Part shown: positions 20,371 through 25,500 of the stretch, one piece after another | Layout: every line of letters starts with the position of its first letter | Position numbering within the stretch: the first letter of the stretch is position 1 | Assembly (NCBI GenBank): GCA_026003755.1 | Contig: BPHV01000001.1 | Location: 248,001 to 312,000 of the forward strand | Length of the DNA stretch: 64,000 nt | Direction: 5' to 3' | Source of the DNA: Candidatus Roseilinea sp. | GTDB taxonomy: Bacteria; Chloroflexota; Anaerolineae; J036; Brachytrichaceae | Program-made: the position numbers and the translations under genes | The notes under the pieces: generated by a model | Database searches by the model: none | What the model was told of the DNA's origin: nothing | Seen by the model: only the letters and a program-made list of their open reading frames with translations

Positions 20371-22537
20371 ATGAGAGGAAAAGTTCGACATTTCACTGTG
20401 CTGTCGCTCGCGATGGGGATGGTTCTCTGGCTCGTCTCGGCGAGCTTGCGGCAGGCGAGCGCCAAGCCGACCGCCGATCGGGTGGTGTATGCCGATAGCT
20501 TGGCGTCGGGGTGGAGCAACTGGTCGTGGAACACCACGGTCAATTTCAACAACACCAATCCCGTCTTTGGCGGCAGCAAGTCAATCGCTGCGACGCTGAA
20601 CCAAGCCTGGGCAGGCCTGTCGCTCAGAACGGACACGCCGGTGTTGCCCTCGCAGCACTACACGCTGACGCTGCGGGTACACGGTGGCACGGGATCGCCC
20701 AAGCAGCTTCAGCTCTACGTGCAGGAGAATGATACTTCTGGATCAGTCGGCCAGTATGACTTTACGGTTGCCGCAGGCACGTGGATGACCATCACGCGCA
20801 CCTTCGCCGATCTGGGCAACCCCGCACAAGTGGCGCGCATCAACATCATGGATCGCGCGGGCTTCGCGCAGGGGACTTTTTACGTGGACGAAATCCGCTG
20901 GCTGAGCGCGCCATCACCGGTCAGCCTGGCGGTGACGGTCACCATCCAGGCGAGCAACGTGCTCACACCATTTTTGCCGGAGATGCGCGCCAGCAATCTC
21001 CCCGCCTGGCTTGGCCCCACCCGGTTCGGCAATGCGACCTTCCGCGCGCGGACAGCAGCCTCTGGGCTTACGTTGCTGCGCTTGCCCGGCGGGAGCTGGA
21101 GCAACAGCTATGGCTGGCTGAGCTGTGAGATGGGCAGCAATCAACCGGGCGTCGAGCCTTGCGGCCCGGTGTCGGCGTCGTGGGCACCGTGGGCGTCGAG
21201 GCCGACCGATTTCATCAACTTTCTGAAGGCGACCGGCATGCGCGGCATGTGGGTGGTCAACCCAAATGGCACGTCCAAAGAGGCCGCTGCGCTAGTCGCC
21301 TTCATGAATGGCAGTGTCAACGACTCTCGCCTGATCGGCACGGACATTCGCGGCACGAACTGGTACACCGTGGGGCGGTGGGCAGCGCTGCGTGTGGCGG
21401 GCGGCAATCCCGATCCGGTCGGCATCAAGCTGTGGGAGTTCGGCAACGAGGTGTATGCCAGCAAGTCCAGCACGGCCTCACCCAGCAGCGCTGGTCTGTG
21501 CGTGGGCTGGGCTTGGGAGGATACCTGGACGTGCGACGGCTATGAGTACGTCAACGGCGTGGGCAGCGGGTCGAGCCGTCGAGAGGGCTACCTGGAGTTC
21601 CGTCAGCAGATGCAGTTTGTGGACCCCACAATCACGCTGGCGGCAGTAGGGATGGAATATCCCGGCGCGCCCTCCGATGTTGGCGGCGGCACATATTCCG
21701 GCTGGGGCAGCCGCGTCATCTCTGCGGCGGGAGCCAATTTGGAGATGTATGCTATCCACCCCTACCCCTTCTTTAACCTTCCTTCGTTGATGTCGCAAGT
21801 GCTGGCCTCCCCGCAGACGCACTGGCCGAACATTATGAACAATGTGCGCAACGCCTTCAACATCTATGGCGGAGGGCGACAGGCGCCGGTGGCGGTTACC
21901 GAATTCAACCTGGTGAGCGTATCGAGCCAAGACACAGGTCAATGGATGACGCGCGCGGTCAACGCGCTCTTCCTTGCTGATTCCCTCGGCCAAGCGGCCC
22001 AGCAAGGGGCTGTGCTGTTTGCGCAGTGGGATTTGGCCAACGGCCGGGATGGATCCAGCGGCTCGGAATACGGCCTGATGCATGAGGACAACGGCTTTTT
22101 TCCGCGCGCCGCAGTACTATGTGTATCCCCTCTGGTCGCGCTTTGGCACGCACATGGTGGAAGCGACCTCCACGGCCGACCCTGCATCTCAGGTCAGCGT
22201 GTATGCCGGCTGGGTAAACACCAGCACAGTGTCGCTGCTGGCCGTGAACAAGATGGCAACGCCGGTTTCAGCAACCATTCAGACGCCAGGGTTTGGGCCG
22301 CTGATCGGGGGGATGAAGTGGCAGATAGTGGCCGCAAGCCTGGGCGCGCAAAACGTGACCTACAACGGCGTGTTGAACCCCACCGACGACTTGTCAAACG
22401 CGCCGCCGACAGCGCTGACCGTGTCCGGGTATTCCACCACGCAAGTGCTGCCGCCCTACTCGGTGACGCTGTTTCATCTACAGCAGCCGCCGCCGAGCTA
22501 CCCGCCGAGGGTGTGGACACCCATCGTGCGGCGGTAA
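20371..22537 (+). CDS. Secreted GH51-like glycosidase with N-terminal carbohydrate-binding-like domain (frameshifted)
   Basis: Exported glycoside hydrolase of about 720 residues if the frame is repaired. A signal peptide is followed by a jelly-roll, CBM-like domain (about 30-190). The clan GH-A catalytic domain has a probable acid/base Glu in LWEFGNEVY (E360) and nucleophile Glu in VAVTEFNLV (E511). A run of six T at 22096-22101 breaks the frame. With one T fewer it reads on as NGFFRAPQYYVYPLWSRFG to a stop at 22537. The tail ends PPRVWTPIVRR, like other chloroflexal secreted proteins. An assembly indel or a recent mutation is more likely than programmed shifting. Confidence 0.75.
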
Positions 22538-22560
22538 TCCATAGCGGGCGGTTCTCTGCA

Positions 22561-23409
22561 TTACTGCGCTCGTGCGGCGCCGATCAGCGCGCCGATGGCT
22601 GTGGCGCAGCCCGGCATCTCCGGGATGGTGAAGTTTACGCCGTAATACCCACCAACCGCTTGAAGCACCCTGCGCACACATGCCAGGTCTACCAGGTGGC
22701 CGACGACGACGATCGGTTCCAGCCGCTCCGCGCGCGCAGCGTTGATGGCGATCACCGCGATCACCTGGCCAACCATCACGGCCACGCCGGCGGCCAGGTC
22801 TTTGCGCTCGACTTGGGCCAGTTCGGGCATCGCCGCGCGACCAAAGTTGACCGCGTTTGCATCGGCCGGCAGTCGGCCGATCGCTCCGCCGGTCGCCTCG
22901 AGCAAGGTGATGTCTACTTTGTTGGAGTCGCCGGCCATCGCCAGCGCGTCAATTTCCTGCGCATCGGCAGTGCCGATCAGCAATTTACACAGGCCGATCA
23001 ACGTCCCGCCGCCGACGGCGCTGCCGGTGACGTGCTGTGCGCTGTGGTTGCGGACGGCGACCATGGCCGTGCCCGAGCCGGCGCTGACCACGAGCGCTTC
23101 TTGCAGCGCGGGTTGTTGGCGCTGCGCCAGGCGCAGCCCGCCCAGACCGATTGCTTCAATCTCGCCCACTTTGACGATGGGCACGCCATCAATCGCATCC
23201 GGCAGTTGGCGATGTTGGCTGCCGGTGACACAAATCTGTCGGAAGTCGGCGACGTCGCATTCCAGCGCAGCAAGGGCGCGCCGTACCTGCGCCACATCCA
23301 CCGTGCGCTGGCTGGGCAGCGTAGCAACGTGTAGGGCGTCCCCGTCGCTCGTCGCCACAACGTCCACGTGCGTCAAGCCGAAGTCAATCGCAGCCCTCAT
23401 CGTAGCCAT
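22561..23409 (-). CDS. Type II pantothenate kinase-like protein
   Basis: 282-residue ASKHA-fold kinase of the Fumble/CoaW family, predicted to phosphorylate pantothenate in coenzyme A synthesis. The N-terminal phosphate-1 motif is AAIDFGLTHVDVV. The central region reads VVSAGSGTAMVAV and GSAVGGGTLIGLCKLL, as in type II enzymes. The second nucleotide-binding segment is around IVVVGHLVDLA. The first ATG is 5 bases after the wecB stop, and another ATG 9 bases later is possible. Type II enzymes are uncommon outside staphylococci, bacilli and some other groups. Confidence 0.75.
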   Translation of the reverse strand: MATMRAAIDFGLTHVDVVATSDGDALHVATLPSQRTVDVAQVRRALAALECDVADFRQICVTGSQHRQLPDAIDGVPIVKVGEIEAIGLGGLRLAQRQQPALQEALVVSAGSGTAMVAVRNHSAQHVTGSAVGGGTLIGLCKLLIGTADAQEIDALAMAGDSNKVDITLLEATGGAIGRLPADANAVNFGRAAMPELAQVERKDLAAGVAVMVGQVIAVIAINAARAERLEPIVVVGHLVDLACVRRVLQAVGGYYGVNFTIPEMPGCATAIGALIGAARAQ

Positions 23410-24588: not shown

Positions 24589-25500
24589 CTATGGGCCTCT
24601 CATCTCGCGCAGGTAACGCACCAGGGCGACGAGTTGTTCATCGGAGATGCCGATCTGCCCGCCGTTGGCCGGCATGGCTGCACCGCTGAAGTTCTCTGGG
24701 TCGGTGGCGCTGCGGCCGGCCCGGATGAGCGCGATCACTTCGAGGTCGCTGCGCTGGCGCAGATACTCCGCGCGGATGAGCTGCATCCCTGCGCCGGCCG
24801 GCCCGTGGCAACCGGCGCACGCTTGCGCATAGAGCGCCGCCGCTGCCTCACGCGAGGCGTTGGCGGACGATGATGGCACAGGGGCGTCGGCGATCGAGGG
24901 CGCCGGCTGACGGCTGCGCACCATTGCACCGCTAAGCACAAACAGCGCTACGACGGCGGCAACGATGAGGCCAACCGATGTTGCCGGAGATAGCACGGCT
25001 ACCGGCCCCTGTGCCAGGTAGTTTTGACCGACCGGCTCGCCCGCGCCGAGCGCGATGACACATGCCCCGATGACGATGACAAACGCCGTCAGCGCCAACA
25101 TGGGTATGGTGATGAAGCCGAACCAGTTGAGGTAGTCGGCGGCGCACGGCACCCCGATGACACATGACTCAAAACGCGCAAAGGCCGGCACTTTTTGCAG
25201 TAGGATGTGATATGTTGAGGCCAACGCGCCGGGGACCGCTAGGGACAGCGCATATTTTGGCAAGTTGCGATCGCGCAGCGCGAGGCCGGCGGCCAAGATC
25301 ACCGCCAGCGGATACATGGCGATGCGCTGATACCAGCACCACAAGCAGGGGATCCAACCCAGCACTTCGCTCATGTATAGGCTGCCGCATGTAGCGACCC
25401 ATGCTGCTGTCAATGCGACGTACAGGGCCACGCGCGCGACCGCATCGCGGGACAATCGCACTGGTGTGAGCTCTTCCACTTCTTGTTTTGCAGTGACCAT
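24589..25500 (-). CDS. DsbB/BdbC-type disulfide oxidoreductase fused to cytochrome c
   Basis: 303-residue membrane protein. Residues about 20-165 form a complete four-helix DsbB/BdbC domain. It has the redox pair PCLWCWYQRIAMYP and the second pair ESCVIGVPC before WFGFITIPMLALTAF. A fifth membrane helix (SVGLIVAAVVALFVLSGAM) and a linker lead to a class I cytochrome c domain. This has heme motif CAGCH and a likely axial Met in GAAMPANGG. DsbB normally passes electrons from thiol oxidase to quinone. The fused heme suggests direct delivery to an extracytoplasmic electron carrier, which is inference. Confidence 0.85.
   Translation of the reverse strand: MVTAKQEVEELTPVRLSRDAVARVALYVALTAAWVATCGSLYMSEVLGWIPCLWCWYQRIAMYPLAVILAAGLALRDRNLPKYALSLAVPGALASTYHILLQKVPAFARFESCVIGVPCAADYLNWFGFITIPMLALTAFVIVIGACVIALGAGEPVGQNYLAQGPVAVLSPATSVGLIVAAVVALFVLSGAMVRSRQPAPSIADAPVPSSSANASREAAAALYAQACAGCHGPAGAGMQLIRAEYLRQRSDLEVIALIRAGRSATDPENFSGAAMPANGGQIGISDEQLVALVRYLREMRGP

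Follow-up and report, generated by a model that had tools for sequence, protein, structure and literature searches.

A disulfide oxidoreductase of the DsbB/BdbC type fused to a c-type cytochrome in Anaerolineae, a candidate respiratory outlet for protein thiol electrons

Known DsbB proteins hand electrons to ubiquinone or menaquinone (PMC4460558), and one gene in the window (the whole 64,000-nucleotide stretch of Candidatus Roseilinea sp. DNA analyzed here) raised the question of whether such a protein could deliver them to a heme joined to its own chain. The first-pass annotation had read this gene as a DsbB domain with four helices and both Cys pairs, continuing through a fifth helix into a CxxCH cytochrome domain with a plausible axial Met, and each of these elements was borne out. 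The open reading frame was a complete gene on the minus strand (303 amino acids plus stop codon, without internal stop) and displayed the following features:

24589..25500, minus strand: gene of the fused protein (open reading frame; orthologues in relatives; dN/dS)
25045..25440, minus strand: BdbC/DsbB domain, about residues 21-152, four membrane helices (NF002849, PF02600, structure match to E. coli DsbB)
25336..25347, minus strand: first Cys pair C52-L-W-C55 in the first outer loop (invariant in both alignments)
25324..25326, minus strand: R59, four residues past CxxC (invariant in both alignments)
25144..25164, minus strand: second Cys pair C113 and C119 in the second outer loop (invariant in both alignments)
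24910..24987, minus strand: fifth membrane helix, residues 172-197 (AlphaFold2 helix, pLDDT ~96; dN/dS 0.06-0.24)
24865..24909, minus strand: flexible, weakly constrained linker, residues 198-212 (pLDDT <50 at 201-204; dN/dS 0.56-0.92)
24592..24864, minus strand: class I c-type cytochrome domain, residues 213-303 (PF13442, PF00034; structure matches; dN/dS 0.08-0.17)
24805..24819, minus strand: heme-attachment motif C228-A-G-C231-H232 (invariant in both alignments)
24673..24675, minus strand: M276, probable sixth (axial) heme ligand (invariant in both alignments)

Residues 24-148 matched NF002849 of NCBIfam (BdbC-type disulfide oxidoreductase; 1.2e-38, 132.4 bits against a cut-off of 124), and the same half matched Pfam DsbB PF02600 weakly but above its cut-off (1.7e-8, 35.4 bits against 22.1), while residues 218-297 matched both Cytochrome_CBB3 PF13442 (1.3e-9, 38.7 bits against 27) and Cytochrom_C PF00034 (9.8e-8, 33.7 bits against 21.3). 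VKOR PF07884 gave no match among the Pfam hits of the fused protein. The assignment to two families rested on (i) a profile match above cut-off, two outer Cys pairs, and a four-helix membrane bundle for DsbB/BdbC and (ii) a CxxCH motif inside the cytochrome c profile match plus a Met towards the C-terminus, with ligation predicted, for class I c-type cytochromes.

The AlphaFold2 model (23-sequence alignment, mean pLDDT 80, pTM 0.71) contained long helices at 3-46, 53-74, 80-103, 132-152, and 172-197, followed by a cytochrome-like helical domain, with the linker poorly ordered around 201-204. In a VIA-align comparison with solved structures, the top match of residues 15-157 was E. coli DsbB (Z 10.5, 3.8 A over 138; 2zuq Z 10.0, 2.9 A over 127), and residues 211-303 resembled cytochrome c6 and the c-domains of NirS (Z ~9). 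For helical proteins, Z values of this size are modest, unrelated four-helix proteins scored nearly equally, and the fold matches are taken only as support for the profile hits. No significant match was returned by Foldseek. A count of five helices puts the cytochrome domain and both Cys loops on one side of the membrane.

The sequence comparison was applied to two alignments, A1 (23 fused members of the window family) and A2 (15 sequences spanning both families), and C52, C55, R59, C113, C119, C228, C231, H232, and M276 were invariant in each. Every member of the main fusion type had an MP motif 48-57 residues past CxxCH, and in many members the cysteines numbered exactly six, the four of DsbB plus the heme-attaching pair. 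In one metagenome-assembled record (L066), CAACR replaced CxxCH in an otherwise normal fusion, with loss of the heme His, which may be a sequencing error or a recent loss. Between the window gene and those of five congeners, dN/dS was 0.05-0.21 in the DsbB domain, alongside the values listed above for the fifth helix, linker, and cytochrome domain from the same comparison; both domains were under purifying selection and the linker was close to neutral. Constrained domains joined by a drifting linker would be as expected for a working two-domain protein.

Motif spacing aligns R59 with Arg48, the quinone-site residue of E. coli DsbB, and an invariant Arg past CxxC favors a quinone as the two-to-one electron step. 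The same architecture and conservation could also arise if the cytochrome had replaced the quinone and the BdbC cysteines reduced the heme with no quinone bound, but the invariance of R59, together with the converter (such as quinone) normally needed between two-electron thiol chemistry and a one-electron heme, makes such direct transfer unlikely. A comparably low probability is given to the cytochrome acting mainly as a docking device, which would anchor BdbC beside an oxidase or a quinol-oxidizing partner, with electrons still flowing out via the free quinone pool. In other organisms, unfused BdbC does use quinone (PMC4460558), and the cytochrome is absent from close relatives, but strict conservation of CxxCH and the axial Met points to redox use beyond mere docking.

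Genome searches, which were sampled, recovered 63 distinct fused proteins after duplicate removal, one of them being of a separate type (L046). An assembly artefact, by which two genes kept separate in relatives would have been joined in error here, was rejected because these 63 proteins included some from single-contig genomes (G007, G250, G307, and G383), and chance was excluded by recurrence of the same architecture down to ~37% identity.

The fusion was present in most sampled Thermoflexales and Caldilineaceae. In the own family of the window genome, 23 of the 28 searched genomes had it; the genus of the window genome was represented by nine genomes, all with the fusion. BdbC alone was carried by four genomes of genus g2, and the remaining one (67% complete) gave no match. 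A class-wide sample of 396 genomes added a further 34 fusions in family f38 and one in f33. Named records carrying the fusion were L062 from Thermoflexales, L063-L069 and L108 from Caldilineaceae/Litorilinea, and L070, which was labelled Anaerolineaceae. There were zero fusions among 54 Chloroflexota genomes with BdbC hits outside the class; in the genome-contig scan, full-length matches among those listed (the best 80 loci) were found only in Chloroflexota, and every other hit kept was to BdbC alone; and none of the plasmid records covered 80% of the query. The open-access literature searched yielded no report of a fusion between DsbB/BdbC and cytochrome c.

The two domain trees, each having few columns and long branches, displayed different pictures: (i) in the DsbB-domain tree, fused rows were scattered, with six changes, of which starred branches forced at least three and (ii) in the cytochrome-domain tree, one clade was not rejected (p-AU 0.51). 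On these trees, the main fusion may have arisen once or more than once. The cytochrome of L070 grouped with standalone cytochromes on long branches, and L070 may represent a separate fusion event. Chloroflexia BdbC proteins of ~180-210 amino acids (L071, L072, L087, L139, L141, and others) had the fifth helix without a cytochrome; those of Kouleothrix (L071, with BdbD downstream) and Chloroflexaceae (L072) shared BdbC plus the fifth helix with the fused protein but ended after that helix. This arrangement possibly resembles a step towards the fusion. The cytochrome was also absent after the fifth helix in L201, a possible recent loss or sequencing error.

The window genome (~95% complete) contained a single DsbB match, namely the fused gene, and no VKOR was found in it. 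Its three DsbA-like Thioredoxin_4 matches imply that a re-oxidase is needed, and since only this DsbB and no VKOR were found, the fused protein is probably the sole DsbA re-oxidase of this genome. One Thioredoxin_4/DsbA match (G000:C1:1023882-1024358) lay inside a 623-codon open frame, similar long frames being present in relatives, and this frame may encode a DsbA-like domain as part of a larger protein. The genome also had two Cytochrom_C_asm proteins, similar in size to CcmF and CcmC, which would attach heme.

In the window, the genes upstream of the fused gene were one of the Flavoprotein family (UbiX-like by eye) and one resembling PNPOx, and a UDP-GlcNAc 2-epimerase-like gene lay on its other side; the former two were also found upstream in congener G007, while the neighbors in G015 differed. 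Elsewhere in the window, the 987-codon ORF 20371-23334 (plus strand), the start of which looked by eye like a secreted glycoside hydrolase, had its tail antisense to ORF 22561-23409; ORF 22082-22537 in another frame looked like its true C-terminus, and a frameshift may lie near 22080.

Outside Thermoflexales, BdbD was located directly upstream on the same strand in 31 of the 39 fused genes with enough flank, often with a gap of 20-80 bases, and in Caldilineaceae the fused gene usually followed a BdbD/DsbA gene; within Thermoflexales, BdbD adjoined none of 20 fused genes. The bdbDC genes form an operon in Bacillus subtilis (PMC8945050). Heme-copper oxidase (E <= 1e-20) was present in 58 of 59 fused genomes versus 40 of 54 unfused class controls, which were hand-picked and phylogenetically unbalanced.

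A second fusion, in which BdbC was joined to a different cytochrome (C[TI]ACH ... GVMYQ; PF00034 1e-4 in G306), was carried by four genomes, all of family f35: G306, G749, G752, and G753, the last with two copies. The cytochrome of this type had standalone homologues across family f35 and was connected to that of the main type only through an extremely long branch, and the second fusion is thus very probably a separate event. Moreover, G092 and G137 of the same family harbored BdbC followed without gap by the gene for yet another cytochrome c, the third kind, which appears to be a lipoprotein. Chance adjacency is unlikely given that BdbC is fused to or paired with three different cytochromes.

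These gene arrangements bear on two further explanations, both very unlikely. According to one, the heme is a sensor or gate, which would sense how reduced the cytochrome chain is and regulate thiol oxidation while carrying no thiol electrons; tethering of the domain and the lack of a respiratory gene among the immediate window neighbors would suit it, but the variety of cytochromes fused to or paired with BdbC, three types in all, is easier to explain by electron transfer than by a common design for sensing. According to the other, the fusion acts in the biogenesis of cytochrome c or of oxidase by controlling the thiol redox state of apocytochromes or copper sites. The second fusion adjoined SCO1/SenC in G306, and the redox state of thiols is important when cytochromes and oxidases are assembled (PMC3420020, PMC5742617); however, the neighbor in Caldilineaceae was a general BdbD rather than an assembly factor, and the fused protein was the only DsbB found in the window genome.

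The DsbA/BdbD gene immediately upstream of the second fusion had, in all four genomes, an in-frame TGA precisely at the first Cys of CPxC (DFQ-U-P-F/Y-C), and DsbA-like genes with a TGA at the first active-site Cys (DFL-U-P-V-C, DFL-U-P-G-C, and DFL-U-Y-T-C) were also observed in Thermoflexales G012 and G021:

L244:1050(+), L245:1034(+), L246:1034(+), L247:1028(-): TGA in DsbA genes of the second fusion
L236:843(+), L237:1095(-), L238:180(+): TGA in DsbA-like genes of Thermoflexales

With the TGA read as selenocysteine, three of the DsbA genes of the second fusion were full length, and that of G306 (L244) had an extra downstream TAA. tRNA-Sec scored above the gathering score in all six genomes tested, including G306, G012, G021, and the window genome, G749, G752, and G753 being outside this set; possible SECIS hairpins past the TGA codons showed no excess over simple base shuffles, except in L237. 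The DsbA beside the second fusion is a probable selenoprotein as judged from these reading frames. DsbA-like selenoproteins are a known kind (PMC1794560), and no description of a selenocysteine DsbA paired with a BdbC-cytochrome fusion was found in a brief literature search.

The first-pass annotation had further proposed that a covalent heme acceptor would link disulfide formation directly to the cytochrome chain. The functional tie between DsbB and a c-type cytochrome was strengthened by the BdbD operon context, the second fusion with a different cytochrome, and the abutting gene pairs, while the word "directly" is disfavored by the invariant R59, which favors keeping a quinone in the path. 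As the best explanation, with a probability of roughly 0.6, the fused protein would be a DsbB/BdbC-type thiol oxidase with its own respiratory outlet, along which electrons run from BdbD through the Cys pairs, a bound quinone, and the tethered heme to an oxidase branch. This explanation takes from the sequences the architecture, its conservation, the selection on it, the operon context, its recurrence, and the single DsbB; we infer the loading of heme, the direction of electron flow, the place of the quinone, and the oxidase as end acceptor.

In the proposed course of events, reduced DsbA/BdbD, after donating disulfides to exported proteins, would be re-oxidized by the BdbC Cys pairs, and the two electrons would pass to a quinone, probably menaquinone, held beside C55 and R59. 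The cytochrome domain, tethered by the fifth helix and linker, would take electrons singly from this quinone and pass them from heme c to the heme-copper oxidase branch, and the quinol would be spared re-entry into the pool or passage through quinol:cytochrome c oxidoreductase. Chloroflexota use menaquinone, which lies near -75 mV, and class I cytochromes are often above +200 mV; with its higher potential, heme c would draw the reaction in the direction of oxidation in cases where the driving force from menaquinone alone is small. Against this explanation stand the lack of BdbD adjacency in Thermoflexales, the L066 record without the heme His, and the use of BdbC alone by the four g2 genomes and many aerobic relatives, from which it follows that the cytochrome is not required for BdbC function generally. 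The broader statement that thiol electrons go to cytochrome c and not to the free quinone pool, and that this arose on at least two occasions in Anaerolineae, each time with another cytochrome and once alongside a selenocysteine DsbA, stands at about even odds.

Compared to B. subtilis BdbC and E. coli DsbB, the fused protein shared the BdbC profile, the two outer Cys pairs, the Arg past CxxC, and (in Caldilineaceae) the BdbD-BdbC order, but it had in addition the fifth helix and the joined cytochrome c domain. VKOR fused to a thioredoxin-like domain likewise combines a membrane thiol oxidase with a redox partner; that partner is on the thiol donor side, whereas here it would be an electron carrier on the acceptor side, and VKOR gave no match. 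CcoP and cytochrome subunits of fructose dehydrogenase were the best sequence matches to the cytochrome part of profile A1 (1.3e-13 and 1.5e-7, respectively), but none of them carries a DsbB domain.

These findings suggest that disulfide formation is wired into the respiratory electron chain in the fusion lineages. If so, oxidative protein folding would drain into the cytochrome branch, a second outlet beside the quinone route, perhaps for the reason that menaquinone is a weak oxidant for the DsbB step. The fusion thereby poses a question testable with one protein, namely whether a DsbB can work without the free quinone pool, and it could serve in expression strains as a means of promoting disulfide formation.
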